A stretch of DNA of 22,267 bases from Cochliopodium minus. Its lineage: Eukaryota; Discosea; Himatismenida; Cochliopodiidae. Positions 1 through 22,267 of this stretch are shown piece by piece (position 1 is the stretch's first letter; the number at the start of each line of letters is the position of its first letter). The stretch spans positions 1-22,267 of the forward strand of contig JAMYWO010000492.1 in assembly GCA_024220525.1 (NCBI GenBank), given 5' to 3'. The translations under genes and the position numbers were made by a program. Under the pieces are notes generated by a model that was not told where the DNA came from, ran no database searches, and was given only the letters and a program-made list of their open reading frames with translations.

Positions 1-75
1 TTTATTTTTTATTTTTTATTTTTTATTTTTTATTTTTTATTTTTTATTTTTTATTTTTTATTTTTAATTTTTATT
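1..75. repeat. (TTTTTTA)n tract at left window end
   Basis: A 7-bp period of six T and one A fills the first 60 or so bases and then degrades into irregular T/A. It lies inside the intron that follows the exon at 132-258 of the minus-strand OTU gene. The same 7-bp unit fills the last 70 or so bases of the window. Joining the two ends gives one nearly continuous array, with a single run of seven T at the seam. Confidence 0.9.
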
Positions 76-131
76 TTTTATTATTTTAATTTTTTATAAT
101 TTAAATCAAATTTTAAATTTATTTGAAGTAC

Positions 132-1025
132 CATTTCATCGCAATAATCTTCATAATTTTTTTGTAAAGTATCAGTCACCCAAGAACAAAGAGTATCATC
201 CCCCTTTTCCGAAATTTTAAATTCTTTATTTTTTCTCAACCAATTTACTGTCTTTTGTCTTTAAAATAATTTTTTTTATATTTAAAAATAACATAAAAAT
301 AAAAATAAAAATTAAAAAAATTAAAATAAATAAAAATAAATACCTTACTTCCTCTTTGGAAATAGTTATTCCATAAAGTAAAAACTGGCGAGAAACAGAG
401 TCAAATTGGCAATTACCATCTTTTTAAATAATTTTTAATTGGAGGTTTTTTTTATTTTCAATATTTAAAATAAGATTTACATGCATCTGTTTCTTTATCT
501 AGTACCATACTGGATTAAATATAAATTCAAATTTTATTTTTTTTGATTAAATTGAAGAGAATATTTATTAATTAGGTTAAAATAGTTGATTCTTTGAATT
601 AAATTTTTCTAAAATTTTTTTTTACTCATATTCTTTGATTCTTCGTATTATACGCTGTTCTGCTGTCTCTAATTCTGTTTTTGTGAAGCTTTGATTTTTT
701 TTTGCTTTGAATAGATCCAAATTTCCACTGTTATTACTCTCCCGTTCTCTTTCTGCAAAACTTATCAATTCTTTTGTTATTTGGGGTGAGCTATTCCTTT
801 TATGAATCAATCTTTCTTCTTCCTCATGTTTTCTTTTTTCTATAAAATGGTTGAAATGTAAAGTTATTAACAAATGATTTGTTTCAAAGAATTTAAAATA
901 AGTTCACTTTCTTCTTCCAGAAACGTCTTTTTTGAAATTTCCAATACTTTCTGCAATTCTTCCAATTCATTTTTGTTAATCTCAAAATCATTTACATTTG
1001 AGATATAGATGTAATTTTCATTCAT
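132..1025 (-). CDS. OTU-family cysteine protease (deubiquitinase-like), N-terminal 188 residues; continues across the window end
   Basis: Five exons on the minus strand: 1025-908, 839-626, 509-481, 419-344 and 258-132. Their phases agree and give 188 codons. The start is the first ATG, which opens divergently from the next gene. Residues 1-110 are charged and probably helical. Then comes the OTU cysteine motif YGNCQF, with the predicted nucleophile Cys124, followed by the helix region ending ...YCDEM at a phase-0 donor (GTACTT) at 131-130. Family knowledge: OTU proteases cleave ubiquitin chains using a Cys in DGNC and a distal His. Here Tyr replaces the usual Asp. The His and WGD parts are missing from this end but lie at 21592-22163 in matching phase and orientation. 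The first intron (907-840) uses donor GTGAAC; the more distal GT would create a stop. The family call is strong; the short third exon is the least certain part. Confidence 0.85.
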
Positions 1026-1110
1026 GAATATTCTTAGATCTTCTTGTAAACTTTTCTTTCAGAATTTCAATTTTTTTTTTGAAAAATATAAAAAAATAGA
1101 GAACTTTTTG
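1026..1110. promoter_or_regulatory. Divergent promoter region, 85 bp
   Basis: This spacer separates the start codons of the minus-strand OTU gene and the plus-strand membrane-protein gene. It must hold both 5' leaders and probably the core promoters. It is AT-rich with poly-T and poly-A runs. I recognise no specific element, so the role is inferred from gene orientation alone. Confidence 0.5.
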
Positions 1111-2160
1111 ATGGGATTCTTTCATTTTGTATATTTCCTTTTTACTTTGGAAACACTTTTGTTATTTGGAGGTTTGAATCTGATTATTAAAAGACCATAT
1201 TAACCCCTTTTTTAAAAATAAAGGAATCGATGTTTTTTCATGGTCAAAAATAGAAGGGGTGAACTATGTTTTTCCTCAAGAAACTACACAATGGGACTCA
1301 TTATATTTGATAAGATGGAGATATTCAAAACTCATATTGCTTAGCCAAAATATAAACACGAGTGATCCAACACAATCCATCCAATATTGGATAGATAATA
1401 ATTTTATTGATAATTTTCAATCAAAATTGGTTGAATATAATCAAACAGAAGTAATAGATCCTAATGATCATTCTTTCTGGAGATTTCACCTCACAAAAAA
1501 TAAAAACTTCACATTTGAATTTACAACCAATAAGCAAGTTTCTTTCGTAATTTTCCCAAAAGGAGATTATTATAACTGGTGGAGTAAAAATTATGATGGA
1601 GAATATACAGGTTTGTAACATTAAAATTCATCTTAAACAAAATAATCTTTTATAAACAAATCTTTAGAATTATATCAGGTTGAAGAAACATTTTCTCAAA
1701 ATTACACTCAAATCCTTCAAAATAATTTGATCTACGTCACTATTGGGAGTTTTGAGGATGAACCAATTACTGCATCCATACATGTAAAGGCTCACATTGA
1801 TATACACAAAATGCCTGCACTAGGTAAAGTTGCAAAGAATGAAGCTACAATAAATGTAAAAGATTTAAAGTGGTTTTATGGTAACTTTCTTTATATAGAA
1901 ATAAAAAATTAAAAATAAAATATATTAATTTTAATTATAATTTTATTGAATTAATTATTAAAGGTAAAATTATTATTGGCTCCACTTTTCAAAGCTTAAA
2001 TGTTCCTATTGATTTTGTTGCGATACCAAATTATTTGGTTCAATCTTGTTTATATATCTTCCCATGGTTCTTTATTCTGTTTTGGGGTGCTCTCTCTGGA
2101 CTCTTATTTTCTTCTAAAAGCAAGCCAGCTATCTTAAATAAAGCTAAAAAGAAAAAATAA
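1111..2160 (+). CDS. Type I membrane protein with signal peptide and C-terminal KKKK (285 aa)
   Basis: Four exons, 1111-1171, 1224-1610, 1668-1880 and 1964-2160, all joined in phase 1. The first exon codes a hydrophobic leader (MGFFHFVYFLFTLETLLLF), likely a signal peptide. Residues 23-245 look like a soluble beta-rich domain with several N-glycosylation sequons (NTS, NQT, NFT, NYT). Residues about 248-269 form one membrane span, followed by a short basic tail ending KKKK. A lysine pair at -3/-4 fits a COPI-type KKXX signal for return to the ER, so an ER or early secretory location is inferred. The aromatic stretch FPKGDYYNWWSKN and the two-part domain vaguely recall the luminal region of plant APD1-4 membrane RING ligases, but no RING is present and I do not claim homology. 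Function unknown. Confidence 0.75.
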
Positions 2161-2353
2161 AATTTGATTGAGGATTCTCCTTTAATTTTAGTTAACATTT
2201 ATTTTTATTTTTTATTTGCTAAATAGTCATTCATTTTAAAATTTAATTGAGTCATTTTCCCATGTTTTTGAGATGAATCATTGAATTTGGAAGTGATTGA
2301 TAAAAATAAAAAAAAATTCCGTTCAAAATAAAATATAAATTTATTCAGTTAAA

Positions 2354-3568
2354 ATGAAAAGAATTCAAGTAATAAAGAATCATTTGATTGGGACGCGTTC
2401 AATTGACAAGAATCCAATCAAATTTACCAATACATGTGGTATCACTGCATATATAGGAAGAGATGGAAATGCCTTTGATTATATTTTGGAAGGATTGCTC
2501 ATTTTGCAAAGTAGAGGTTATGATTCAGCAGGATGCACAACCATATCAGATAATAAAGAATTTGCAACATCCAAATATGCATCCAAAGGATCAACAAGCG
2601 ATGCATTAGATAAATTGGGTGATTCAGGTGAGAAACATAAGGGACATTACATTGGTATTGGTCATACGAGATGGGCAACACATGGTGCAAAAACAGATAT
2701 AAATGCTCATCCTCATTTGGATATGAAAGGTAGAGTGGCGCTTGTTCATAATGGTGTAATTGAAAATTCTGATGAATTGAGAGATGAATTGGCCAAAAAT
2801 GGATGGAAGTGTATTTCTGAAACAGATACAGAAGTCATTGCCCAACTTGTAAAAAATGTTTTCTTCTTACTTTGCACAAATCAAAAATTATATCCCAAAA
2901 AAAATAAAAAAATTAAAATTAAATCAAATGATCTTAATAATTTTCTTTCATGATCTTAATTTCTTAAAACTTTTAATTTTCAAAAAAAAAAAAAAAAAAA
3001 GATTGGATACTATTTGGATAAAGACAACTCTACATTAAATGAAGCAGTACAAAAAGTACAAAAAAGGTTGGAAGGAACATGGGGATTGGCAATATTGGAC
3101 AGAACGAATCCACATCAAATAGTGGTCGCCAAACACGGTTGTCCTTTGTTGATTGGTGTCGCCAAAGACAGAATGTTTATCGCTTCTGAACCTTCTGCTT
3201 TTGGGAAATACACCAAACAATATGTTCCTTTAAAAGATTTTGAAGGTAAAAAAAAAATTGTTTTTTTTTTCTTTTTAATTATCTTTTAATTTTTTGATTA
3301 TTTGGAACTTTTTAATTATTTTTTTTTTGTTTCATATTTTTGGGATTATTTTACATTTTTTTGGATTATTTTACATTAATTTTTTATATTTTTTTATTTT
3401 ATTTTTTTATTTTTTTATTTTTTTATTTTTTTATTTTTTTATTTATTTATTTTATTATTTATTTATGTTTTTTTTGTTTTATATTTTTCAATTCAAATAT
3501 TTTATCAATTTTTTATTTATTTATTTTTATTTATTTTTATTTTTTATTTATTTTTTTTTTTTTTATCA

Positions 3569-3599
<31 letters not shown>

Positions 3600-4559
3600 A
3601 TTTTATATTTTTATTTTTTATTTTATTTTTATTTTTATTTATTATTTATTATTTTATTTTTCATTTATTTAACATTTTTTTATAACAGTTGCGACGATAT
3701 CAGCAGACACAAACATAGACCAAGTGAGAATAGAACACGCATCACCAGAAACAATAGAATTGACACCCCACCCTCATCCTCACTGGACAATAAAAGAAAT
3801 AAGGGAACAACCCACCTCCATCGCCAGAGCCATCAATTTTGGCGGGAGAATTTATGATGAAACCAACGCCAAATTGGGTGGTTTGGATGAACGCAGTGAC
3901 GAGTTGTTACCCATCAGAAACTTGTTAATTGCTGCTTGTGGTATTTTTTTATTTATTTTTTTATTTATTTTTTTTTTATTTTTTTTTATTTTTTTTTACT
4001 TTTTTTTATTTTTTTTCATAAAGTTATTGTCATTTTTTTTTATTTTTATTTTTTATTTTATTTTTATTTTTTATTTTATTTTTTATTGAATTTTTAGATT
4101 TTTTATTTTAGATTTTTCATTTTTAGTTCATATTTTCATTTTCTCTTATTGTATGAATTATTTATTATTTTATTTTTTTATTTTATTTAAAATATTAATT
4201 TTTTCATTAATGTATCTAAAACATTTTGAAGTTCATTTTTTTTTTTTTAAATTTCAATAAATTTTGTTTTTTATTTTTTATTTTTTTTTTATATTTTATT
4301 TTTTTTTTATATTTTATTTTTAATATGAATTAAAAATTCTTTTTTTTTAACCAGAATTATTTTTTTATTAAAAAAAAAGGGACATCATTTCACGCAGGAT
4401 TATTCGGAGCAAAGATAATGAGACAACTTCAATGTTTCGACACGGTTCAAGTTTTTGACGCATCAGAGTTTGGCCATTTTGATCTCCCTCCCAAATGTGG
4501 AATGTTAGTCATTTCCCAGTCTGGTGAAACTCAAGACGTTATGAAGGCCATGGATATTG
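2354..4559 (+). CDS. Glutamine-fructose-6-phosphate aminotransferase (GFAT), N-terminal 390 residues, 3' part missing
   Basis: GFAT makes glucosamine-6-phosphate from fructose-6-phosphate and glutamine, the first step of UDP-GlcNAc synthesis, in the cytosol. Exons 2354-2848, 3002-3245, 3689-3940 and 4380-4559 join in phase. The class II glutaminase domain starts at Cys28 (CGITAYIG), with GHTRWATHG at 103-111, then HNGVIEN and TDTEV. It is followed by the linker (IELTPHPHPHW) and the start of the first sugar-isomerase (SIS) domain, with CGTSFHAG near 330 and SQSGE near 377. The sequence then reaches a donor at 4560 and no further GFAT exon follows. About 290 residues (rest of SIS1, all of SIS2) are absent against the usual length near 680. 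The exons show no internal damage, so a missing piece of assembly or a recent truncation is likelier than old decay. The catalytic Cys is normally residue 2; here 27 residues precede it. Introns 2 and 3 (about 440 nt each) are almost pure T/A tracts. Confidence 0.92.
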
Positions 4560-4715
4560 GTAACAAAATATAAAATAATGAAACAAAAATTTTATTTTAA
4601 AATAAACAAAAATCATATTAAAACAAATTGACAATAATTTTTTATTTTTTTTTACTTTTTTTATTTGATTTTTATTTGAATATTTTTTTTTTTTATTTTT
4701 GATTTTTTATTTACA

Positions 4716-4814
4716 CAGGGACATAACAAATTTTTCAAATTAAAAAAATAAATCCAAATTTTTTTTTTGTTAGTGATATTCAGTTAATATTTATTTTTAT
4801 TTTTTATGTCCCTG
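4716..4814. mobile_element. 99-bp inverted-repeat element, MITE-like (Tc1/mariner type suspected)
   Basis: An 11-bp perfect terminal inverted repeat, CAGGGACATAA at 4716-4726 and its complement at 4804-4814, encloses an AT-rich interior without coding capacity. Termini beginning CAGG and a TA next to the right end suit Tc1/mariner elements, which duplicate TA on insertion; the left flank reads CA, so the duplication is imperfect. Alternatively this is a stem-loop at a gene end. It lies just after the truncated GFAT. No second copy is visible in the window. Confidence 0.45.
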
Positions 4815-4844
4815 TATTTACATTTTATTATAAAATGTAATTTA

Positions 4845-4919
4845 TATTTTATATTTTATATTTTTATATTTTATATTTTATATTTTATATTTTATATTTT
4901 ATATTTTATATTTTATATA
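4845..4919. repeat. AT microsatellite, about 7-bp unit (ATATTTT)n
   Basis: About ten near-perfect copies of a 7-bp AT unit. It has no coding potential and lies directly beside the minus-strand exon-like block at 4931-5067. Confidence 0.85.
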
Positions 4920-4930
4920 TTTTTTTTTAC

Positions 4931-5067
4931 CATCATCCCCTCCCCCTTCGCTTGAATCGTCCCCATCACCAATGTCATATTTAGATTCTTTTTTTTTGCT
5001 GCCTTTACCATCAGTGTACTCTTTATCTATTTCCTGATCTACGTCTGTAGGTACTGACAATGGCTGT
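4931..5067 (-). other. Orphan exon-like block, acidic/Gly-Ser-Lys-rich
   Basis: This 137-bp block is far richer in G+C than its surroundings and is bounded by good minus-strand splice signals: a T-rich tract ending TTTTTTTAG just upstream and a GTAAAA donor just downstream. In the open frame it reads QPLSVPTDVDQEIDKEYTDG, then a Lys/Glu run, then GDGDDSSEGGGDDG. The composition and flanks suggest a real exon, but I could not join it in frame to 5221-5466 upstream, and no partner is visible downstream. It may belong to a gene damaged or lost where the assembly is uncertain. Confidence 0.35.
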
Positions 5068-5182
5068 CTAAAAAATAAAAAAATAAATAAAAGTAAAAAA
5101 AAAAATTGAAAAAAGCAAAAATAAAATATTTCATAAATAAAAAAATATAAATAAAAAATGATAAAAAAACGAATAAAAAAAA

Positions 5183-5218
5183 AAAAATAAAAATAAAAAT
5201 AAAAATAAAAATAAAAAN
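5183..5218. repeat. (AAAAAT)n tract ending in an undetermined base
   Basis: A 6-bp A-rich repeat runs into the only N of the window, at 5218. An ambiguous base at the edge of a simple repeat marks weak read consensus, which matters because GFAT is cut short nearby. Confidence 0.85.
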
Positions 5219-5220
5219 AC

Positions 5221-5720
5221 AAGGAAAGTTGTCAAATATAGAAGAGTCTTGATAATCATTCTTGGACTTCCAATTTGGAGTCTACCAAATGTTGAATGAA
5301 TTTTCTGGAAAAATTTTGCACTTTTTTGTTTGATTATGTTTAATATTTTAAATAAAGATAACCCACTTTGTGGATGTTTTAGATCAAATAAAAAAAAAAA
5401 ACTAGAGATATAGGATCGTATTGGTTTTGGTGGTTTTTTGGACAGTCCTCTTTTGTTTTTCTTCAAATCTAATTTTCAAGGAGCGTGTTGGAGTTGAGTG
5501 AATTTTTTTTTATTGTCTTTTTTCATATTTTTCTGATTGAGATGGTAACCAATATTTATAAAAAATCATGCTGTGTTTTGTTGAAACTATCAGGCTGTAT
5601 TCTTTTGACTCCAAATTCACTAGCGTCAACAAAAATTAGTTTTTTTTCTTCTTTACTCCAAAGTAAAAAAAGAAAAAATGTTTGCATACAAGATGGATTA
5701 CTGAACAAAATTTTTATTTA
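5221..5720 (-). other. Unassigned region with fragmentary minus-strand coding look; possible decayed DDE transposase
   Basis: No gene model works here on either strand. On the minus strand, 5698-5555 reads ...WSKEEKKLIFVDASEFGVK..., followed by a stop and then, further on in the same frame, ILVTISIRKI. The pattern hydrophobics-FVD-x-S-x-FG, then an I-V-x-I-S-I strand, faintly resembles the first catalytic strand of Tc1/mariner or IS630-like transposases (FIDESGFN ... GAIS). A separate frame is open at 5466-5221 (KKNKRGLSKKPPKPIRSYI onward). The resemblance rests on a few residues. It could equally be the remnant of an unrelated gene. Confidence 0.22.
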
Positions 5721-5742
5721 ATCAAGAATTCTTGAAGAAAAA

Positions 5743-6335
5743 TTAAAAATTAAAGTAATTTTCAGATTTGTATTTCAAGTTTTTTTCTTCTTTTAGTTTT
5801 TCTAAACTATATAATACATCTTCTCTAATTGTAATTTTTAAATCTTCCAAACCGAAGAAATCTAACTCGGGCCTTATAAAATCAACAACAATTACTTTTA
5901 TTTCTTTTTCATAAAAATCATTTTCAAATTCATTTATCAAATGTATCTCTATTGTTTTCTGTTCATTCTTATAAAATGGATTCCATCCGATACTCATCGC
6001 CATACCTGAACAGAATATAAACATAATCAAAGATAAAAAAGATTAATTTTTACCATAAATTTCATTTTCTATTTTTCCCCAACCATAATAAATTCCTGTT
6101 GGATATTTTTCCAATAATTCCTTGTATTGATCAGTTGAGATATTTGCTTCATGTATGAAAAGCAAAAAAATTAAAACAATTAAATGATATTTGCTTCATA
6201 TAATTTTTTACCGGTCGGAAATCCCAATTCTTTTGATCCTCTTTTAAATCCGGGTATAACTTTTCCTTTTAAATAAAATGGGAATCCTTCAACAAATGTT
6301 AAACCTCTTTTCACATCTTTATGATGATATTTCAT
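5743..6335 (-). CDS. RFK: Riboflavin kinase (159 aa)
   Basis: It phosphorylates riboflavin with ATP to FMN. Three exons on the minus strand, 6335-6212, 6146-6054 and 6005-5743, join in phase 1 and give a complete 159-residue protein, the usual size of a stand-alone eukaryotic riboflavin kinase. Landmarks: FKRGSKELGFPTANIS at 30-45, holding the PTAN motif that binds nucleotide and Mg; GIYYGW; MSIGWNPFYKN at 76-86; Glu92 in the TIEIHLI stretch, matching the family's catalytic Glu; and the C-terminal FIRPELDFFGLEDL segment. It has no FAD-synthetase domain, so it is monofunctional as in animals and yeast. The 3' end abuts the disordered 4560-5742 region. The start lies 128 bp from the ubiquilin stop, both on the minus strand. 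Confidence 0.95.
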
Positions 6336-6463
6336 TTTTTTAATAATGGTTCAAATTATTTTTTTGAATGTACAAATGGATGGTGATAAAAAATATTTTT
6401 TGTTGGGCTTTGAAAAGATTCTAGGTATACCAAACAAATAAAATTTAATCTAAAAACTCAAAA

Positions 6464-8524
6464 TTAATTATTGAGCAAATAATCAATTGCAGCTTGTACA
6501 TTTCCTCCACACATTTGAAGGGCTCTAATATTGGCTTGGGGATCAGTAAAACCCATCGCATTTAATTGCTCTAATTGGATTTCATATTTAACTTCAGGTG
6601 TTTGGGTAGTTTGTGGTTGGGTGTTTTGTGGTTGTTGAGTGGTTTGTGGTTGTTGGTTATTTTGGGTGTTAGGTTGTTGAAAGCCTCCCATTCCTCCAAA
6701 CATTGCAAAAGGATTAAAGGGTTGTTGTTGTGGTTGTTGAAAGCCTCCCATTCCCCCCATTCCTCCCATATTTCCAAATAAACTTGCAAAAGGATTGAAC
6801 GGTTGTTGAGTTCCTTGTTGGTTACCTTGTTGGTTACCTTGTTGGGTTCCTTGTTGTTGAGGTTGTTGAGGTTGAGTAGTTTGGGTTCCTTGTTGGGTTC
6901 CCTGTTGTTGTTGATTTTCTTTTGGTTGGGTAGTTTGGGTTCCTTGTTGTTGAGGTTGTTGGCCACCCATACCACCAAACATAGCAAAAGGATTGAATGG
7001 TTGTTGTTGATTTCCTTGTTGTTGAGGTTGTTGACCACCCATACCACCCATACTTCCCATAGCAAATTGGAGCATTTGAGGGTTCAAAAGTTGTTGCATC
7101 ATTTCTGGATTTTGCAACATTTGTTGCATCATTGGATTTTGTTGCATCATATTTTGAAGCATAGGATTGCTGTTGATGATTCCTTGCAACATTTCCGGAT
7201 TTTGTAACATTTGTTGCATCATATTTTGGAACATTGGATTTTGCATCATTCCCATCATCATTTGTGGATCCATTCCACCCATTCCTCCCATTCCTCCCAT
7301 TCCTCCCATTCCTCCCATTCCTCCAAACATATTACCAAAAGGATTATTTCCCGTATTGTTTTCAGTGGTATTGCCAGTGCTATTACCAGTACTGGTATTA
7401 GTGCCAGTTGTATTTCCATTTGTATTCCCTATTTGTTTTAGATTTTTTTTGAAGGGTTTATTAGAAATTTGTGTAAAAAAAAAAAATGGAAAATCTTTAA
7501 GAAATTCAAAGAACAACAACCACCCTCTTCTTTCTTTTTCTAAATTAGAATAAAAATACCTTGTTGCATGAAAGGAAAACCAAAAGGATTATTAAATAGA
7601 TTATTATTATTATTATTATTATTGTTATTAGAATTATTGTTCCATGGATTTGGTAAAGGATCATTATTTGGAGAAGTATTTGAGTCATTTTGATTTGAAT
7701 TTGTATTTGTATTTGAATCAGAATAATCTTCAAAATCATCATCCATAAGAGGTTCTTGAATATTTGTATACATTCTTCTTAAAGCAGAAAAACCTTCAGG
7801 ATGATTAGAAATATTAGCGATAGCTCTGTCAGTATCTCTCAACATTTGTTGTCTTCTTCTTGGATCCCTCATTGTTTCCATCATTTGTCTCATTGTGGAA
7901 GGATCATTCATAATTTGGGCTATTTCTGGATTATTCTCCATCATTCTTCTCATTGAAGGATTCATTTGCATCATATTTCTCATTATTTCTGGATCTGATA
8001 GCATTCTTTCCACAAGTGGATTTTGCATCATTTGATCCATAAATTCAGGATTATTTAATATTTGTTGTTGCATTGATTGAAGGTTGTTGGGTGGTTGTTG
8101 ATTTTGTTGATCAAATAAATTACCTGTTGTTGTATTATTAGTGCTTGGAGGTTTTGATGATCCTGGAACAAGATGAACTGTCAATCCCTCCTTGATATCT
8201 GAGAAAAGGGAATGATTTTTTTTTTTATTCATAGATTTATAATTTTATGGTTTTTTTATTTACCATAAGATTCAACTGTTTCATGATTATTTAAAACTCT
8301 TCCAGCAAATATTAATCTTTGATTTTCAGAAGGAACATTGGATTCATTGGATAATATTTGTTTAAATTCTTCAATTGTAGCTTTTTTTTTGGTATTAAAT
8401 TTTTAAATTTTTTTTTTTTAATTAAGAAAATTAGAATTTTGTTTTTACCTTTTGGAGAAACAGATGCAACAAATTTTTTGCCATTGGAACATTTTATATT
8501 TACATTTATATTATCATTTGACAT
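6464..8524 (-). CDS. UBQLN: Ubiquilin/Dsk2-type UBL-UBA shuttle protein (598 aa)
   Basis: Ubiquilins carry ubiquitinated or hydrophobic clients to the proteasome. Four minus-strand exons, 8524-8449, 8380-8264, 8198-7560 and 7428-6464, join in phase 1. Order: ubiquitin-like domain at residues 1-78; STI1 repeats at about 110-215 (NNPEFMDQMMQNP, DPEIMRNMM, DPRRRQQMLRDTDRAIANI); an Asn-rich linker; a second Met/Gln-rich STI1 group in the last exon (QNPMFQNMMQQM, NPEMMQQLLNPQM); a long Gln/Gly/Thr-rich disordered part with GGMGG and PFNPFAMFGG repeats; and a UBA domain at about 556-598 (LEQLNAMGFTDPQANIRALQ ... AAIDYLL). All family parts are present in order. The Gly-Met and Gln-Gly-Thr expansions are larger than in yeast Dsk2 and are phase-separation-prone by composition (inference). 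Confidence 0.95.
7271..7324. repeat. 9-bp coding minisatellite in ubiquilin (Gly-Gly-Met repeat)
   Basis: About six nearly identical 9-bp units encode GGM repeats on the minus strand within the last ubiquilin exon. Because the units are near-identical at DNA level, copy number is likely variable and recently expanded. Confidence 0.85.
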
Positions 8525-8801
8525 TTTTATTTGACTAATTTTATGAATATAATAAGTTACCCTTTTTAATTTTTTTTTTTATTTTTTAAATCATAGAGAA
8601 TTTTTTTTTTTTTTTTGAACTTATTTCAAACAATCCAAAATTTTTGTTGTCCTACAACTTAATATATATTTTAAAACAAAAAGTCTTAATCTGTGTGAGT
8701 AAATTCAGTTTTGATTCTTGATATATATAATTGAAAATAATTTGATGAAAAAAGAAATTTTTTTTAATTGAAAAAATATAATAATAAAAATAATTTGATG
8801 A
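8525..8801. promoter_or_regulatory. Divergent promoter region between ubiquilin and CHD1
   Basis: A 277-bp AT-rich spacer lies between two start codons facing away from each other. It contains poly-T and poly-A runs and TATATA-like stretches near 8665 and 8722. No defined binding site is recognised. Sharing of control between the two genes is inferred only from layout. Confidence 0.5.
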
Positions 8802-8812
8802 ATGTTGAATGA
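8798..8812 (+). promoter_or_regulatory. Five-codon upstream ORF overlapping the CHD1 start
   Basis: An ATG at 8798 opens a frame of four codons (MNVE) ending at a TGA at 8810-8812. It overlaps the proposed CHD1 ATG at 8802 in another frame. If the leader includes it, scanning ribosomes meet it first, which could dampen CHD1 translation. Confidence 0.4.
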
Positions 8813-11800: not shown

Positions 11801-14800
11801 CCAGAACAAGAAATGTCTCTTGGAATCATAAAAAATAGCAGCAAAATGATTCTATTGGACAAATTGTTGGTGAAATTGAAAGAAACAGGACACAGAGTAT
11901 TGATCTTTTCCCAAATGGTGAGGATGTTGGATATAATAAGTGATTACTTGTATTCCAAACGTTTTCCTTTTCAACGTTTGGATGGTGCAATGAGCAGACA
12001 AGAACGTACCTTTTCCATGTCTCATTTCAATGCTCCTTCTTCTCAAGATTTTTGTTTCCTTCTTTCTACTCGTGCTGGTGGTCTTGGCATCAACCTTTCT
12101 ACTGCTGACACTGTCATCATTTTTGATAGTGACTGGTATTTTCTTCAAAACATATTCTTTCTTTTTAATTTTCTTTTTGATTTCTTTTTAATTTTCTTTT
12201 ACTTCCTTTCAATTCCTTTTTAATTCGTTTCAATTTTTTTTTTGAATGTTTTTTAATCTCCCACTTTAATTAAAAGGAATCCACAAAATGATTTACAAGC
12301 TTGTGCAAGAGCACATAGAATAGGACAAAAGAAAACAGTGAATATATACAGATTTGTGACAGGAGGGACAGTGGAGGAAAACATATTGAAAAGAGCCAAA
12401 GAAAAGTTGGTATTGGATCATCTCGTCATTCAAAGAATGGATACTAGTGGTAAAAACTTGGAAAACAAAGGAAAGTCCAATTTCACTGGAAAGAAAAGTT
12501 TTACAAACGAAGAACTTGATCGGATCCTCAAATTTGGTGCTGAAGATATTTTCTCTTCCTCCAATCCTTCTTCTTCAAAGTCTGATCCTGAAAAAGATCT
12601 TCATGAAATGGACATTGATGACATCCTTGAAAGAGCTGAAAAAACCAACCCTGATGATCAACCCAGTACCATTTTCTATTTATTCCATTTTTTTTATTCC
12701 ACTCTCCTGTTTCTAATTTTTTATTGTTTTTTTTTTTGAATTGATTTTTATTTTGCTATAGTTGAGAATGATTTGCTGAATGCGTTTAATGTGGCGAATT
12801 TCAAAGTGAATGAGAATGATAATTTTTGGGACAAGTTGATAAGCAACATATCAGAAAATGAAAACTTTGTTCCACCTAACTATAAAGAAGAAAAAAAAAA
12901 CAGTGAAGAGGAAGAAGAGGAAGAAGGTGAAGAGGGAGAAGGCAAAAAAAGTTTGAAAAATCAAAGAAAAAAAAGAAACGAAGACAGAAACGTCAAAAAA
13001 AACATGCAAAGTCTCTCTGATGCTCCTTCTTCTTCTCTTCCTCTCGGTGAAAAAAAACCAAGCATGAATGCAAAATTGACACCTCAACACAGAAAAGGAC
13101 TGTATCAAGCTTTTTTAAAATATCCCTCCATAGAAAACACAAAACATCTTCGACAACTTGCTCGTCTTAAAAGAAAAGCTTTAAAACTTATTAAAGAAGA
13201 ATCTCTTCATTTTTTAAAAGATTCTCTTTTTCTTCTTCTTAAATCACCTTCTTATCTCTCCCTTCTCTCTCCCTCTACCCCTTCTCTTCCTTCTCTTTCT
13301 TCTCGTTTTGATTCCTTTTCTAACAACGGTACCCTCCCCATTACTACCAACTCTTCTATCTCTAATAATAATACCTCTAATGATACTGACAGTTCCAACA
13401 ATAGTATCCATAATAGTGATGGTACTACCGAAAACAACATCACTATCAGCAATAACAACAACAACAATAAAAGTAATTTAGAAAACACAAAACAAGAGAA
13501 CCGAATCACTGAAAACAATACAAAACCTCCTCTCACCACCGAGCCATCCGAAAAGAGAGTATTTATGAGATGTTACAAAGGTTTCTTTCATTCTTTAAAT
13601 CTATTCTATTACACTATTTAATCATATATTTATTATATTCCCATAATTCGATTTAAATCTCATAATTAAAATAGGAGACAAAGAGTTGAGAATCAACTGT
13701 GTTGAAGTTATAGAAAGATTTGGGGGATTCGTGGCTTTTAAAAATTTAATTTCTCACTACAATGAAAGTGAAAATGACTTTTTGTTGGATGAATCTTACA
13801 AAATAGCACCTCCTGATTGGCCCAATGTATCTTGGACCTTAAAAGATGATTCCATGTTGCTTTTGGGAATATACAGATATGGTAAAAAAAAAAAAAACAA
13901 ATAAATTCTTAAATCTTACTTTCACTTGCTTCCATTTTTTGATTATTAGGAATAGGGAGTTGGAAAGATATCAGGGAAGATAAAACACTCAAGCTAAAAG
14001 ACAAAATACCAGAGGAAGATGATGGTAAAACTTTGCCAAAAAGATCACTCGAAAAGAGAAGTGTCTTTCTTTTGAAAAAAATCTCTCTTCCTTTTATCCA
14101 ACTCTCCTCTCTTATTTCTTCTCTCTCTGTTTCTCCTTCTTCTCATGTTTTTGTGGAAGACAAACCTCCTTCCTCTCAAAACAAAAGAAAAAGAAACTCC
14201 CTTTCTACTTCTACCACTTCTTCTTCTAAATCTGATCGAGATTCCTCTCAAAGGAAAAAAGCAAATTCTACCACAATGGAAAGGAAATCTTCATCATCCT
14301 CTTCATCCAAATCATCCAGCAGAACTAAAGAAGGATCCTCTTCCACCACTTCCAAAAGTAGAAGACCATCTTCCTCATCTACTTCTTCTGGCGAAAGAAC
14401 AGGAGAACAAAAGAAAAAAGAAAACAAAAGAAAGGAAATGGAAGAAATAGAAATGGAAGAAAAGGAATGGAAAATTGAAAGAATTAAATGCCAAGAATAC
14501 TTGAACACTCATGGTGCCATTCAAATTCTCAAAAAATTTGCAAATCTCCCCATTTCAAATCTATCTGATCAATTGAGGCTCAAAAAGACAAAAAAGTATT
14601 TAGTGTTTCTTGGACAAAAGATTGAGAGCATCATCAAACAAAGAAACTTTCAACGAAACTTAGAGTTTTGCTTGTGGAAATACATATCTGAGGAAACCAA
14701 AGGAACAAAAATCCCTCCTACCAAGTTGAGAATTTTATTTTATCAACTCAAATCACAAGTAAGTGATAAAAAATCATCAAAACCAGTCTCTGATAAACAA

Positions 14801-14923
14801 TCTTCAGTACAACAAAAATCTTCCTCCAAAAAATCCTCTGAAAAATCTGTTGGTTCCTCTCCATCTCACCAAAATCAACACTTCTTAAAAAAGAGATTGT
14901 TGGGGGATACTATCAACAAATAA
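8802..14923 (+). CDS. CHD1: CHD1-type chromodomain SNF2 ATPase (1722 aa)
   Basis: Nucleosome-sliding remodeller, nuclear. Eight exons join in phase: 8802-9898, 10037-10401, 10604-11217, 11432-12135, 12277-12665, 12762-13580, 13675-13881 and 13950-14923. Residues 1-250 are acidic (Asp/Glu runs) with basic patches. Tandem chromodomains lie at about 253-330 ([17 protein letters not shown], with a short Asn-rich insert) and 360-420 ([18 protein letters not shown]). The SNF2 lobe has DEMGLGKT near 466, [18 protein letters not shown] near 653 and GTPLQNS. The helicase C lobe has [23 protein letters not shown] and ARAHRIGQ, residues about 849-945. A SANT/SLIDE-like part follows at about 1330-1420 ([15 protein letters not shown]), then a Ser-rich linker and a CHD1 helical C-terminal domain (DUF4208) at about 1575-1670. 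This end domain marks CHD1 rather than CHD3/4 or ISWI. An 82-residue Asn-rich insert lies inside the ATPase lobe. Confidence 0.96.
10756..11001 (+). repeat. Asn-rich coding repeat (AAT/AAC trinucleotides) inside the CHD1 ATPase lobe
   Basis: Eighty-two codons, most of them AAT or AAC, are interrupted by short Lys-, Glu- and Ile-bearing pieces. They sit between [20 protein letters not shown] and [14 protein letters not shown], which are adjacent in ordinary CHD1 proteins. The frame is kept throughout and no splice sites bound it, so it is translated. Such tracts are common in dictyostelid-like proteomes. Confidence 0.85.
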
Positions 14924-14982
14924 TGATTTTCAAGAAAAGAGAATTAATAAATTATTTTTTTAAATTACTAAAAAAAAAAAAA

Positions 14983-16710
14983 ATGAAAAAAGTTTTTTTA
15001 TTTTTGTTATCTTTGATCTTTTTGACTTTTTTATTTTTGATTATTTTTATTTATCCTATTCCATACACACTTGATACCATTGATGTCGAAAAATTAGAAT
15101 GGAATGACTCACAAGAATTTATTGAAAAAATTGTTCAAATGAGAAAGCCAGTTATAATTAAAAATTCTCCCATGTCAAGAAGTGATGCAATAGAAAAATG
15201 GAAAAATGAAGATTATTTCAAATCAAAGCTGAATAATAATTTCACTAATATTTACAATTCAACAACAGGAGAAATGTTTTATTATGATGCCACCAAAAAA
15301 ATAGTTGAAGCTTCAAGATCAATAAAATGGAAATTTGATTTTAATGTAATAAAGAAGATGAGTATAAATGAATTCTTTGAAAGAAAAAAAATGGATTTCA
15401 TCTACTACAGCAACACTTTATCCTCCATCTCTGAAGATCTTTGGGATGATATCCAACTCCCCTCCAACATTAAAAAAATAGAAACAGTAGATCAAAGAAA
15501 GAATACCTCCCTCAACGTGTGGATAGGAAGTAAAACTGTTTCTCCTCTCCACTTTGACAGTAGCCACAACTTTTTTTTTCAAATTGTAGGACAAAAAGAA
15601 TTTCTTTTGGTATAAAAAAAAAAAATATAAAACCAAAATAATAAAAAATTGTTAAAATGATTAAAACAGCTAAATTCTTATCTATTGTTAGTTACCTCCT
15701 TCGGATCATAGTAATTTTTATTTCATATTTATTTTATTTTTATTTTTATTTTTATTATTACTTTATTTCCATTTTTATTTTTTATTTTTTTAATTTGTAA
15801 AAAAGAAAAAATAATGATGTACCCCAGTCTCCACATTGGTCACAGACAATCTATGTTGCATTTAAACAGAAATAAAGTGGTAGACATTAAAGGCATTCCC
15901 TCTGTTTCTTCAATAAAGGTAAAATCTTACTCTTTTTAACATTATTAAAATAAAATTTTATTTTTTAATATTTATTTATTATTTTTAGTTTTATTTTATA
16001 TTATTTTAAATTTTTTTTTATTTTTTGAAAAGTTGGAAAGAGCAATAATAGAAGGAGGAGATATATTGTACATTCCTCCTTTTTATTTTCACCATGTAAC
16101 AGCATTGACCCCTTCTATATCCCTCAATCATTATAACAAAACTTCTTTTTCTGATTCCATTAAATCGCTTTTTCAAAAAAAAACCATTTTTCAAGATTGG
16201 TAAGCTCAAATAGCCATTTTTAATTTATTTTTTATTTTATTTTTCTTTTAATTTTAAATTAAAAAAAGGTGGAGTTCAAGTAAAAAAACATCAGTACAAT
16301 TATACATATTGAGAGAGATAGTGAAGAGAGTACTAAAGACAGGAGAAAAAGGAGCAGCAGAATTTGGAGAAGAAATAGTAAACAATAAATTCAAAACATT
16401 GATACACGACAGACTTTTGGATCTTTCTAAAACTCAACTTTACAAAGAAATTCAATTTTTGAATCAAATGCCTATTGACAAAATCAATTTCATGAAATCC
16501 AGAAAATGCAGAATCAAAATCACCACAGAAGAAAAAAATCAATTCAAACAACACATTGATGAGATTATTGAAACATTCAATCAAATTCCATCTGATATCA
16601 GAGAAATCATTTTGACTGATTTTGTAGAAGACAAAATTTCAGAATTATATGGATTGAATAGCACCCCTTCCATCTTGTTAATGTGTCTTGGTTCTTCAAT
16701 GAAACAGTGA
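14983..16710 (+). CDS. Membrane-anchored JmjC / cupin-8 domain protein (about 447 aa)
   Basis: Fe(II)/2-oxoglutarate oxygenase fold. Exons: 14983-15609, about 15807-15918, 16033-16199 and 16269-16710. Start chosen at 14983; the in-frame ATG at 14923 overlaps the CHD1 stop. Residues 3-24 are a hydrophobic segment after KK, then PIPYTLDTI: a signal anchor or signal peptide, which places the rest in the secretory lumen. The JmjC core has RKPVIIKN near 48, NVWIGSKTVSPLHFDSSHN with metal ligands His190 and Asp192, MYPSLHIGHRQS, GGDILYIPPFYFHHV with the distal His about 265, and SISLNHYNK. The C-terminal 145 residues are helical and unrecognised. The junction after 15609 is troublesome: the GTATAA donor is phase 0, but the obvious acceptor (GTAAAAAAG at 15797-15805) leaves two extra bases before the MYPSL frame. 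An A-run length error would explain it. Substrate unknown; a histone demethylase role is unlikely if luminal. Confidence 0.82.
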
Positions 16711-16799
16711 AAATAAAGAAAATTTGTTTTTCATTAACAATTCTTGTTGAAACAAAAGAATTTTTAGTTATTTTTACCAAATTAAAAAATAAAAAAAAA

Positions 16800-17930
16800 A
16801 TGAATAGGAATGAAGATTATTCACCCAATAAGAGGAATAGATCTCCTCTTAAAAAAGATAAAGATTCTCTAAAAAGAACAAAAATAGAAAGAAATGGTAA
16901 TAATTCTTCATACAGAAAATCTAACTCTCCCCAATCAAATAGGATGAGATCTCCCAAAAAATCACCAAAAAGATCACCACAATCAAATAGAAGATCTCCC
17001 CAATCAAATAGGATGAGATCTCCCAAAAAATCACCAATAACAAGAAGATTATCAAGATCACCACAATCAAATAGAAGATCACCACAATCATATAGAACGA
17101 GATCTCCCAAAAAATCACCAATAACAAGAAGATTATCGAGATCACCAAACAGAAATTATTCTCCTCAAAGGAATAATGATGATAGAAGGCCAAGAGTAGA
17201 AAATATTAGTGAAGATCCTATTTGGAAGCAAAAAAGAGAAGAACAACAAAGAGAAAGGGAAAAAGAAGAAGAACTGGATAAAGAAAAGCAACAAAGAATT
17301 AATAAAAGAAGAGATCTACCCTTTTCTAACCCAATTTGGAAAAAATCTCCTTCACCTCCCCCCTCTATAAAGAATATAGTTCTTGCGAGAATGAATGATG
17401 TAGAAGATTCAATCAGTGAAGAAGATGATCAAAAAAAGAAATTAGAAAGCGAGAAAAAATTGAAAAAGGAGAAGAAAGAAAAGAAATCCAGCAAAAAAAA
17501 GAAAAAGAAAAAAAAAGAAGAAGATGAATGGGTTGAAAAGAAGGTAGTTGTTCCAACAAACACATACAACAAATTAGGACCTAATCCTCTTCCAACTATT
17601 GTATCTGAACAAGCCAATTTCGGAAAATCATTGATGCCTGGTGAAGCTCAAGCGATGGCCAATTATGTTCAAGATGAAAAAAGAATTCCGAGAAGAGGAG
17701 AAATTGGTCTCGAGACTGAACAAATCGAAAAATTTGAAGAATTGGGATTCGTCATGAGTGGTAGTAGACACAGAAGAATGAATGCTGTTCGTATGAGAAA
17801 AGAAAGTCAAATTTATTCTGCAGAAGAAAAGAGAATGCTTTCTCAATTTAATTTTGAAGAAAAGGCCAAAAAAGAACAAAAGATCTTGTCTGACTTTAAA
17901 TCAATCATAAACAGAACAAAAAAGAAATAA
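16800..17930 (+). CDS. NKAP: NKAP-family nuclear protein (376 aa)
   Basis: Intronless. The N-terminal two thirds are Ser/Arg/Lys-rich, with repeated SPKKSP, RRLSRSP and SPQSNR units at residues 40-125, then a charged Glu/Lys helix with a Lys run near 230. Residues about 259-376 match the conserved NKAP/SynMuv C-terminal domain: LGPNPLP, LMPGEAQAMANYVQ, KRIPRRGEIGL, IEKFEELGFVMSGSRHRRMN, then FNFEEKAKKE. In animals NKAP acts in RNA splicing and transcriptional repression, and in plants and other eukaryotes relatives are spliceosome-associated; the SR-like repeats fit that. The start at 16800 follows a 90-base spacer after the JmjC stop. The reading frame is open further upstream to 16683, but that part overlaps the JmjC coding end and is not needed. 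Confidence 0.93.
   Translation: MNRNEDYSPNKRNRSPLKKDKDSLKRTKIERNGNNSSYRKSNSPQSNRMRSPKKSPKRSPQSNRRSPQSNRMRSPKKSPITRRLSRSPQSNRRSPQSYRTRSPKKSPITRRLSRSPNRNYSPQRNNDDRRPRVENISEDPIWKQKREEQQREREKEEELDKEKQQRINKRRDLPFSNPIWKKSPSPPPSIKNIVLARMNDVEDSISEEDDQKKKLESEKKLKKEKKEKKSSKKKKKKKKEEDEWVEKKVVVPTNTYNKLGPNPLPTIVSEQANFGKSLMPGEAQAMANYVQDEKRIPRRGEIGLETEQIEKFEELGFVMSGSRHRRMNAVRMRKESQIYSAEEKRMLSQFNFEEKAKKEQKILSDFKSIINRTKKK
16928..17152 (+). repeat. Coding repeats in NKAP (Ser-Pro-Arg units)
   Basis: Imperfect direct repeats of about 15-90 bp. A long block containing the codes for RSPKKSPITRRLSRSP occurs twice, around 17012 and 17099, nearly identical at DNA level, with shorter SPQSNR units between. They extend the SR-like domain by in-frame duplication. 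Confidence 0.8.
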
Positions 17931-18034
17931 AGATTACTTATATTGCATGCTTGAAAATTTGATCTTGAATAAATTTTTTTTTGTTTGGAAATTTTATATT
18001 TTCTTTAAAACGTGTTTGATCAAAAAAAAAAAAA

Positions 18035-21000
18035 ATGAAGAAAGATTCAGATCATGGGTCTAATAATCTGGATTTTTTTTCACAAGTGGGCAATAAAGGT
18101 AAAAATCCTTCAATAACAAACAAATAAATATAAATAAATTTCTATTTTCAAATTATCAAGATATGGAAATGAATATAAAGATTAATGAATTGAAGAGCCA
18201 GATGGAATTGATAAAAGAAGAAAGGGAAAGGGAGAAAGAATTTTTGTTGAAAGAACTTGAAAACAGTAGGAATGAGAGTTTGCAGAAAGATAAAAACATG
18301 GAAAAGTACAAATCAGATACAGAAATAGCAATGGAAAAATTGGTATCATTTTGTAAGGGAGCAAAAACAAATATAGAACAACTTAAATTAGCCAATCTGG
18401 GTATTAAACGAGAAAAAGAAAAAATTGAAGAATTGCTTCAAAATAAAAATGAGGAATTGGCACAAAAAGAAAATAAGATTGATAATCTCTTGAAAGAAGT
18501 TAAAACATTGGAAAAGAGCAATAGTATAGAAATTATAAATGGATTAAAAGAAAAAACAAGTTATTTGGACAACAAAATCAAAACTCTTTATTCCCAAATC
18601 GATCAATTCAAACAAGAAAATCAAAATCTCTCTTCCAAACAAGAAAAAAATAAACAAGAAGTAGAATCGAAAGATCTTCTCATTCAATCTCTTCAACAAA
18701 GAAATGTGGAACTAAAAAACGAAAATTATGAAATTCTTTCCTCAAAAAACAATTTGGAAGAAAAACTGAGTGAAAAAGAAAAAAAAGGCGAGCACCTTTC
18801 CTCTCTTCTTTCCTCTTCTAAAAAAGAAATAGAAACACTTGAAAATAAATTAATTCAGCAAAACAAAGAAAACAAATCTCTTCTTCTTTCTCTTCAACAA
18901 AAAGAATCTTCTTTTCTTCAACAATCTGATGATTTCCTTCTTCAAATCCAATCCCTCCAACTCCGCCTTTCTTCTAAATCTCCTTCTCCTCTTCCTTCTC
19001 TTCATTCCAACCATAATGATAATAATGAAACTGATAATAATAATGAAACTAATGATGAAAATCATATAAGTAATCAAGAAGAAGTGGAAAAAGAAACTGA
19101 TATCGTCACTATACATGATGATACTACTACGCATGATACTACTATACATGATGATACTACTATACATGATGATACTACTATACATGAAAATGTATCTTTT
19201 ACCAATGAAGAGAGTACAAAAAAACATGAAGGGGAAGAAGAGAGTATAAAAGAGAATATAGAAGAAAGTATAGGAGAGAAGGAAGAAGAAGATGTAGAAG
19301 AGAATATAGAAAAGAATGTAGAAGAGAATGTAGAAGAGAATATAGAAGAGAATATAGAAAAGAATATAAAAGAAAATATAGAAGAGAATGTAGAAGAGAA
19401 TATAGAAAAGAATGTAGAAGGGAATATAGAAAAGAATGTAGAAGGGAATATAGGAGAGAAGGAAGAAGAAGATATAGAAAAGAATGTAGAAGGGAATATA
19501 GGAGAGAATGTAGAAGGGAATATAGGAGAGAAGGAAGAAGAAGATATAGAAAAGAATGTAGAAGAAAATATAGAAGAGAATGTAGAAGAGAATATAGAAA
19601 AGAATGTAGAAGGGAATATAGGAGAGAAGGAAGAAGAAGATATAGAAAAGAATGTAGAAGAAGATGTAGAAGAAAGTATAGAAAAGTACAAGGAAAGAAT
19701 AGAAAGGTATGTAGAGTGCATCAAGAAATACAAAGAAAAGAGAGAAAAAGATGCAAAAAGGATGGAAAAAAAGAAATTGGAAATCTCTTCTTTCAAACAA
19801 GACTTTGAAAAATACAAAAAACAAATTTTACTTTTAAAAGAAAAAATAGAAAAAGAAAAAGAAAAAGTAGAAAAAGGAAAAGAAGAATATGAAAAAATGA
19901 GAATAAATTATGAAAATGAAAAAAATATTTTTTCTCAAAAATTAGAATTAAAAGAAAAAACAATAAAAAAACAAGGAGAAGAAATCAGAGAAACTTCTTT
20001 TCTGTTACAATCTTTTGAGGAACAAAAAATGGAAAAAGAAAAAGAGAGGAAAGAATTGGATTCCCAACTCCTCCTTCTTTCTTCTCTTCTTCAAGAAAAA
20101 GAAGAAAGTTTGGAAAAAGAAAAAAAAGGAAAAGAAAAGTTGAAAGAAGAATGTAAAGAGTTGATTTCTCAAAATGAACTTCTCCTTTCTTCTAAAAACC
20201 TTTTAGATTCTTCCACTCTTCAAATAAATGAAATACAACAAAAATACACACTTCTTCTCGAAGAAAATGAAAATCAAAAAAACCTTTTCACTGAAAATTC
20301 AGAACTACTTTTTTCCCTTCAACAATCTCTTCATTCAAAAGAGAATCTTCTTCTTCAACAATCTCAACAATTACAATCTCTTCAGTCTCTTCTTGAAGAA
20401 AAAGAAGAATCTTCCCATTCTTTTCATGAACAACAAAATGTGTTGAATGAACAAATCCTTTCTCTTCAAGAAACAAACGATGAACTTTTAGTTCAATTTC
20501 ATGATATCACCACAAAATACGAACAAACTCTTCTTTCTTTTCAAAATTCTTCTCAACAAATTCTTTCTCTTCAAAATGAAAACAAAGAGCATCTTCTCAA
20601 TCTCGAAACACTTCAACAGGAACACTCTTCTCTTTTACAACAAGTTGATTCTTTGAAAAAAGAAAAAGAAGAAAATGAAATTCTTCGAAAAAACTTTAAT
20701 CTTCTTCAAAACAATCTTTCTGAAAAAGAAGAAAACATTGAAAGTCTTTCTCTTCAAATTCAAGAATTGTCTTTAAACCTCGAAAATTCTCAATCTCAAC
20801 TCTCTCTTCTTCAGAATCAAAATCAACTTCTTCAGCAATCTTCCCTAAATTTAGAAAAGTTGGAAAAAGAAAGAGAGGAACACGAGTCTTCTCTTCAACT
20901 TGAAAAAAAAAAATATCAAAAACTCTCCGCCATAAACAACCAGCTTCGTCTCCAACTCAATGATTACTCTTCCCTCTTAAACCAATTTAAATCTCTTTTT

Positions 21001-21546
21001 AATCAACCTCAAGATCCTTCCCCTAATATTAAGAATAACCAAACTGTAAACAATGAAAATAACAATACCAACAAAGAAGGAGAAATGGAGAGTATTTCCT
21101 TAAATGAGAAAGACTCTGATGAAGAAAAATACAATGAATCCCTTTCTTATCTTTTGTCCATAATCAAAAATATTGAAGTCTTCTCTTCTCAAGAAGCTAA
21201 ATCCAATCTTTTGACTTTGTCCAAAAAGTTTAGAGAAACTATAAACGAAAACAAAACTATTTATGTAAAAGTTTTTCAATTTTATATTCACTATATTATT
21301 TTATTCTCAATGATACTTTAGAATGAATTAAAATCAATACAAAATTCAGAAAGCAAAAACAAAACAGACCTTATTTACATCAAAAATGTTATTGTCAAAT
21401 ATTTAGTTAGCAGGGGAAACACAAAGGAACAAACACAACTATTACCTGTTTTATCTCTGGTATTAAAGTTTTCAGAACAGGAAATAGAACAGATAAAGCA
21501 GGTTGAACAACAATCCAAAAGTGGTTGGTCTTTATTTAAAAATTAA
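18035..21546 (+). CDS. GRIP-domain golgin, long coiled coil (1130 aa)
   Basis: Golgins with a C-terminal GRIP domain bind Arl1 or related GTPases on trans-Golgi membranes and tether vesicles. Three exons, 18035-18098, 18161-21264 and 21322-21546, join in phase. After a short N-terminus, residues 23-1055 are almost continuous Glu/Lys/Gln/Leu heptad-like coiled coil. It is broken by a Thr/His/Asp repeat and a Glu/Asn repeat at about 360-545. The last exon codes the GRIP domain at about 1070-1115 (DLIYIKNVIVKYLVSRGN, LLPVLSLVLKFSEQEIEQI) with the conserved Tyr, then SGWSLFKN at the end. Without the last exon the frame runs on into intron sequence and would lose the Golgi-binding part. Its 3' end converges on the OTU gene with a 45-bp spacer. 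Which golgin subtype (golgin-97, golgin-245 or GCC) cannot be told. Confidence 0.9.
19118..19186 (+). repeat. 18-bp coding repeat in the golgin (DDTTIH)
   Basis: About three and a half copies of an 18-bp unit code for DDTTIH. They form a hydrophilic, probably unstructured break in the coiled coil. Confidence 0.85.
19250..19680 (+). repeat. Nested coding repeat in the golgin, Glu/Asn/Ile/Val units
   Basis: About 430 bp of 12-bp basic units code for variants of ENIE, KNVE and ENVE, organised into larger blocks around GNIGEKEEED that recur about four times. Near-identity at DNA level shows recent tandem growth. The block keeps frame. The opposite strand is open for 324 codons only because the repeat lacks stops in that register. 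Confidence 0.9.
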
Positions 21547-21591
21547 TTTATTTGTTTAAACGAAATTTCCAAAAATTATATAAATTTAATT

Positions 21592-22163
21592 TCAAATCTT
21601 GATTTTTTGATAAATTTTTTTGAGAATATTTATTCTGTGTTGTGTGAGAGGACAAATTAGAAAAATGTCATTCAGAGATTCTATTAATTTGTATTCATTT
21701 TGAAAAACTATATCATCAAAAGTTTCAACATCAAAAAAAACTTCTCTGAGGGCCTCCAATTTATAACTCTGAGGTATTTTTTTCACAAGAGAAACCAATT
21801 CTTTTTAATACATAAATATGAAAAATTAATTGAAATTAAAATTTAAAAGAAAAGTTATACCTTCTTTATATCTATTTTCTCTTTCAATAAATTCCTCTTT
21901 TGTGATTATTGAACAATAATGATTTTCAAGAAAGTGAGCAATAACCAAAGTAAGGGAATTTTTTGTGAAATTTTTGGAAGTAAATTCACTCTTTTTTTTT
22001 ATAAAAAATAAAAATTAAATATAAAGTAAAGAGAAAAAAATAAAGAAAAAGAAACCTGATACGATTTTTCTTCTAATGTGGAACTAAATAAAATTATTTT
22101 TACTCTAAAAGTTTCGCAAATAGCCAATATTGTGATTTCATCTCCCCAAGTTCCATCTTTACT
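21592..22163 (-). CDS. OTU-family cysteine protease, C-terminal 148 residues; enters from the right window end
   Basis: Three minus-strand exons, 22163-22056, 21990-21861 and 21800-21592, join in phase. The first begins SKDGTWGDEITILAI, the OTU WGD region that follows the Cys helix. It continues with FRVKIILFS, then in the next exon LVIAHFLENHYCSI, holding the catalytic His of the OTU fold. The last exon adds a 69-residue helical tail ending KIYQKIKI. No start codon or cysteine motif lies upstream before the window end; instead an acceptor (AAAAAAG at 22170-22164) and a (TTTTTTA)n tract do. Both the phase (0) and the missing domain parts match the OTU half at 132-1025, giving one 336-residue protein if the ends are joined. 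In that numbering WGD is 194-196 and His is 248. Confidence 0.87.
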
Positions 22164-22165
22164 CT

Positions 22166-22267
22166 TTTTTATTTTTTTATTTTTTATTTCTTATTTTTTA
22201 TTTCTTATTTTTTATTTTTTATTTTTTATTTTTTATTTTTTATTTTTTATTTTTTATTTTTTATTTT
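22166..22267. repeat. T/A tract becoming (TTTTTTA)n at right window end
   Basis: Irregular T/A passes into a regular 7-bp unit of six T and one A up to the last base, the same unit and orientation as at position 1. It lies in the intron upstream of the OTU exon at 22163-22056. Confidence 0.9.

Follow-up and report, generated by a model that had tools for sequence, protein, structure and literature searches.

The stretch of Cochliopodium minus DNA analysed here (22,267 bp, hereafter the window) is the entire scaffold C473 (contig JAMYWO010000492.1) in an assembly of 44,654,751 bases and 598 contigs, the genome being that of a eukaryote with AT-rich introns. Followed outwards in either direction, the window runs into the same gene, encoding an OTU-like cysteine protease, as if its two ends were joined in a circle. 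We consider it very likely that the window instead derives from a linear nuclear chromosome and is a misassembled scaffold, with its pieces in permuted order, and that the ends meet because these pieces were joined at repeats in that order. An earlier note, made from the letters of the window alone, had offered a circle, one unit of a tandem duplication or a contig closed by the assembler. What survives of this is the assembly product; the circle, the tandem unit and a correctly closed contig do not. Three observations carry the argument: the OTU gene is complementary across the two ends, the gene for glutamine:fructose-6-phosphate aminotransferase (GFAT) is split between the window and a second scaffold, C104, and a dispersed repeat is truncated at the only N in the window.

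The OTU gene at the two scaffold ends

Both ends of the window carry OTU exons on the minus strand. In the order of the gene, the features are:

349..419, minus strand: OTU exon with the Cys motif (DGNCQFDSV...), DGNCQFDSVSRQFLLYGITISKEE, first codon split; from frames read and a Pfam OTU match together with the next exon
132..251, minus strand: OTU exon TVNWLRK...YEDYCDEM, with a phase-0 donor from 131; from frames read and Pfam OTU
1..131, minus strand: 5' part of the OTU intron, with a (TTTTTTA)n array over ~1-97; from the sequence read
22164..22267, minus strand: 3' part of the same OTU intron, with a (TTTTTTA)n array; from the sequence read
22056..22163, minus strand: OTU exon SKDGTWGDEITILA..., phase 0 (reading SKDGTWGDEITILAICETFRVKIILFSS... 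/ SKDGTWGDEITILAICETFRVKIILFSSTLEEKSYQ); from a Pfam OTU match together with the next exon
21861..21990, minus strand: OTU exon with the His motif (HFLENHYCS), SEFTSK...HFLENHYCSIITKE...; from frames read

The left half covers positions 3-61 of the 128 in the Pfam OTU profile (PF02338) with 19.9 bits, under the cut-off of 23.3 (E 0.0011), and the right half covers positions 63-118 with 23.9 bits, just over that cut-off (E 6.5e-05). Taken as one, the halves are contiguous over the profile, with the Cys motif on the left and the His motif on the right, motifs that we take to be hallmarks of the OTU-like cysteine proteases, and the joined product belongs to that family. The break lies in phase 0 on both sides, and the implied intron measures 131 + 104 = 235 nt, or more if array copies went unassembled. 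The earlier note had described the exons at each end (on the left, Cys exons running to a phase-0 donor after YCDEM at 132; on the right, a phase-0 exon followed by the His motif), had joined them into one gene and had given that gene a single intron of about 235 nt at the break. All of this is borne out, with one correction: the exon placed at 344-419 lies at 349-419, its donor reading GAA/GTAAGG (the slash marks the exon edge).

It might be supposed that each end of the scaffold cuts a different OTU paralogue, and that the fit between the halves is only apparent. The genome does encode several OTU proteins, and one of the genes, on C377, is also cut by a scaffold end. An intron at the place of the break is, however, absent from all nine of the other OTU genes in the genome that cover this place, so that the halves are unlikely to stem from paralogues interrupted at an intron common to both. 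Four of the nine were read through (on C152, C25, C377 and C35) and the remainder were seen as unbroken match spans (C69, with two genes, C201, C60 and C75); the OTU spans of C201 and C35 contain one stop codon each. Furthermore, the halves meet at profile positions 61 and 63 in one phase, and no orphan complementary half was present among the genome matches followed, two weak rows on C114 (E 0.86) and C43 (E 1.3) being left aside. An origin from two paralogues is, in our estimate, barely credible, and on the sequence as read both ends of the window are one OTU gene.

Two candidate partners were rejected. Scaffold C377 ends within another OTU gene, yet SK..WGDE is already present there, so that it overlaps the right half; the locus read (25314-27425) terminates inside the gene just past WGDEV. 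On C7, the profile match extends over positions 2-53 only, but the reading frames go on to the later part of the domain. DNA searches with both flanks of the window found, in the listed part of the matches (189 in one search), only AT-rich stretches elsewhere.

The (TTTTTTA)n array that the two ends have in common proves nothing about their adjacency, because other scaffold ends match the window start alike. The first 57 bases of the window are identical to the last 57, and the window start is also overlapped by the ends of C1 (63 bases), C257 (51) and C161 (52). Across the genome, a 49-base (TTTTTTA)n pattern gives 1360 forward and 1315 reverse matches, overlapping ones counted. Three T6A units are found at 8 of the 40 ends of 20 other scaffolds, and 7 of the 40 read N; these are the scaffolds of known length, several of them found via array matches, so the sample is not random and the share may be high. 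Among interior 80-base stretches, the proportion with the array is 0.28% in the window, 0.8% in C104 and 1.25% in the other loci, a set enriched for arrays, and the array adjoins four N runs in loci brought in by array matches. Near the tips of two scaffolds (the start of C1 and the end of C424) we also saw a palindrome, TGTGTCTGGAGGTCCAGACACA or its complement.

The GFAT gene and its continuation on C104

If the scaffold ends argue for adjacency, the GFAT gene argues against continuity of what lies between them. The relevant features are:

2354..4559, plus strand: GFAT, N-terminal half (exons by eye 2354-2848, 3002-3245, 3689-3940 and 4380-4559)
4841..4929: (TTTATAT)n array, at or near which the window would quit the true GFAT path
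C104, 12,808 down to ~11,654, minus strand: GFAT, C-terminal half, from exons read, profile matches and comparison with 1jxa
C104, ~12,875-13,005: (TTTATAT)n array, oriented relative to GFAT as in the window

The fourth GFAT exon stops at 4559, in phase 1, halfway through the first SIS domain. The part of this domain in the window corresponds to Pfam SIS positions 4-72 (19.4 bits, under the cut-off of 25), and the minus strand of C104 carries positions 74-130 of the first domain followed by 9-65 of a second. Both splice edges are in phase 1 (ATT G/GTAAC in the window and AG/CA TTA TCG on C104) and, once joined, G and CA form a single alanine codon, giving ...SQSGETQDVMKAMDI-A-LSNNIPVFSVVNAVGS and onward LSNNIPVFSVVNAVGSTISR. 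Measured against the bacterial-type enzyme 1jxa, the window half stops at residue 358 and the C104 half starts at 371, with 11 query residues for 12. Both halves enter (TTTATAT)n arrays that are oriented alike. Counted over window and C104 together, the gene has the glutaminase domain and two SIS domains of a GFAT (GlmS) enzyme.

Profile searches of the genome with the SIS and glutaminase domains revealed no second GFAT. Both SIS matches (2/2) lay on C104, the window's own half-domain exon being missing from the listing, and the glutaminase (GATase_6) search gave one match on C473 and two on C55, where the glutaminase frame is, as read, that of an asparagine synthetase. Because the remainder of GFAT lies on C104 in matching phase, orientation and array, the chromosome, so far as the assembled letters tell, leaves the window after 4559 and continues into C104, not into the window from 4930 onward. 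An apparently single-copy gene split over two scaffolds in phase, in orientation and at a flanking repeat is what misassembly predicts; so too are joins at recurrent sequence, and such sequence is found at every place concerned, with (TTTATAT)n on both C473 and C104, the dispersed repeat, and (TTTTTTA)n at both ends. Within the GFAT intron, at ~4718-4817, there is also an inverted repeat (acagggacataaca ... ttatgtccctgt), possibly a small transposon-like element.

These results bear directly on the circle and on the tandem unit, both of which the earlier note had kept in play. Both need GFAT to continue within the window and are contradicted by its continuation on C104; the sequence is not continuous all the way round, since it departs for C104 after 4559 and has an N at a broken repeat edge at 5218. 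That the window is one unit of a collapsed tandem duplication would account for the adjacency of its ends just as well, but such a unit must be continuous through 4841-5218, and we give this explanation next to no credence. A real 22-kb extrachromosomal circle (eccDNA) existing beside the chromosome, perhaps formed by recombination between 7-bp arrays, would fit with the window ends being adjacent in one gene and with arrays of the same unit and direction flanking the GFAT break. In such a circle, however, GFAT would be cut, and the N join at the truncated dispersed repeat would fall within the piece; we judge it very improbable. Much the same low probability attaches to a variant in which the 22-kb segment is excised as a circle in some cells, by way of the direct 7-bp arrays, the chromosome staying intact and the scaffold blurring the two forms. 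A biological circle is possible only as an extra form beside the chromosome, and nothing here favours it.

Past its array, C104 has on the plus strand a charged exon, which is followed by an ABC-2 membrane region (Pfam). As judged from its letters, C104 looks chimeric itself at ~12.9-13.0 kb, where the GFAT half meets, at (TTTATAT)n, an ABC-2 half for which no ATPase domain was detected. Two features of the window enter into the question of what belongs next to this transporter:

4930..5068, minus strand: possible exon QPLSVPTDVDQEIDKEY...; no Pfam match
5743-6340: riboflavin kinase gene

The exon at 4930-5068 may encode the linker of the ABC transporter on C104. When three ABCG ATPase regions from the genome served as tblastn queries, nothing convincing turned up in C104:8001-18000 (best E 0.29), nor was the transporter half found by profile searches with PF19055 and PF00005, in one of which 19 of 145 candidates were scored. 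Scaffold C504 was considered as its source and rejected, as the ABCG gene there is another one that has a linker and a membrane part itself.

This arrangement suggests another way in which the assembler might have produced the window, namely by closing a loop: the 22 kb would belong in C104, flanked there by two direct (ATATAAA)n arrays (in the GFAT intron and in the transporter intron); in jumping from one array to the other, the assembler would have left the loop, later cut at the OTU array. The GFAT half and array on C104 are suitably placed and oriented for this, and the C104 transporter half needs an upstream half oriented as the exon at 4930-5068 would supply it. The loop predicts, however, that the transporter ATPase should lie to the right of 5068 on the minus strand, and the same three tblastn queries found none there, the best match in the window (E 0.97) being elsewhere; the next genes are riboflavin kinase and ubiquilin. 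In addition, the truncation of the repeat at 5218 suggests a second unreliable join. We regard such a loop as unlikely.

The single N and the truncated dispersed repeat

The window contains one N only, which borders an A-rich array on the right, and directly to the right of the N lies a repeat that recurs throughout the genome:

5218: single N, where a scaffold join is probable
5219..5402: dispersed repeat, A-rich at its right end and cut off at the N

The repeat right of the N (5219-5401) matches at least 42 other places in the genome, at 72-96% identity, 40 of the 844 first-look candidates having been scored; a further 11 matches are confined to the A-rich stretch on the other side of the N, some of them near repeat copies. 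Ten other copies were read. Six, without an N at this place (C60, C354, C121, C23, C590 and C149), share a conserved left continuation ending in CTTTTCAATGCT, and this continuation is missing at the window copy. Three more (C251, C172 and C148) are, as in the window, fragments that start at most 5 bases from a single N and have other sequence to their left, and in the tenth, on C87, the left side reads N. Two scaffolds start in or beside the same repeat (C529:2 and C590:75), which is probably a retro-element. Because truncation of the repeat and a single N occur together, we read the single Ns at repeat fragments as marking sites where the assembly broke in the repeat and something was attached, the piece 5219-22267 beginning at one of them, and we infer that the 5218 join to 4930-5217 is false.

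A number of points weigh against this reading of the window and of its second join in particular. The gene evidence contradicts only the break at or near 4841-4929 and not the join at 5218, which could be true with an underestimated gap, and for 4930-5217 no true partner was located (C504 having been tried). The truncated copy on C148 has an A-rich left side much like that of the window; A-rich DNA beside the repeat can be its usual company rather than a sign of error. A naturally truncated retro-element would also miss its left flank, albeit less regularly at an N. Elsewhere the assembly contains single Ns, one run of 100 N and long N runs, and the long runs may not necessarily be gaps; we have placed little weight on them. 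The run of exactly 100 N, at position 2650 of the locus read on C6, has identical sequence on either side and resembles a duplicated gap edge.

How a permuted scaffold may imitate a circle

Besides the riboflavin kinase, other genes of the window encode ubiquilin, a chromodomain-SNF2 remodeller, a Cupin_8 protein and an NKAP C-terminal protein. A long coiled-coil-like gene (~18103-21540), golgin-like by eye and with no Pfam match at E 0.01, contains a 24-base coding repeat (KNVEENIEE-like) at 19236-19683.

In the chromosome, we suggest, 5219-22267 would come first, followed by the OTU intron array, by 1 to ~4840, by the GFAT intron array and then by C104, reversed, from ~12,808 down. For the course of the assembly we infer the following order of events. 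The assembler would have left the (TTTTTTA)n array of the OTU intron unbridged and, at or near the (TTTATAT)n array, would have crossed into foreign sequence, 4930-5217. The piece 5219-22267 would then have been attached on the wrong side, via the single-N join at the truncated dispersed repeat, and with the pieces so permuted the outer ends would meet and mimic a circle.

Circular eccDNAs have circular maps, carry chromosomal genes and can have short direct repeats at the possible junction. C473 resembles them in all three respects; it differs in that its inner junction is contradicted by the presence of GFAT on C104, and in being known here from assembled sequence alone. The closer likeness is to repeat-induced misassembly, that is, to false scaffold joins at repeats, a general problem to which PMC6868369 is devoted. 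As in such cases, C473 is broken at short tandem arrays and a dispersed repeat, the two halves of a gene lie on different scaffolds and an N stands at the join. What departs from the usual case is that two faults seem to be combined in C473, with the permuted ends meeting inside one gene.

The circle is thus best read as an ordinary assembly error and not as a real feature. Several corrections to the assembly are suggested: GFAT links C473 to C104, C104 would be chimeric at ~12.9-13.0 kb, and single Ns at the truncated repeat are doubtful joins. Where an AT-rich genome has simple arrays in its introns, a permuted scaffold can pass convincingly for a circle, even at the level of a gene, and what decides the matter is whether every gene within the supposed circle is complete.

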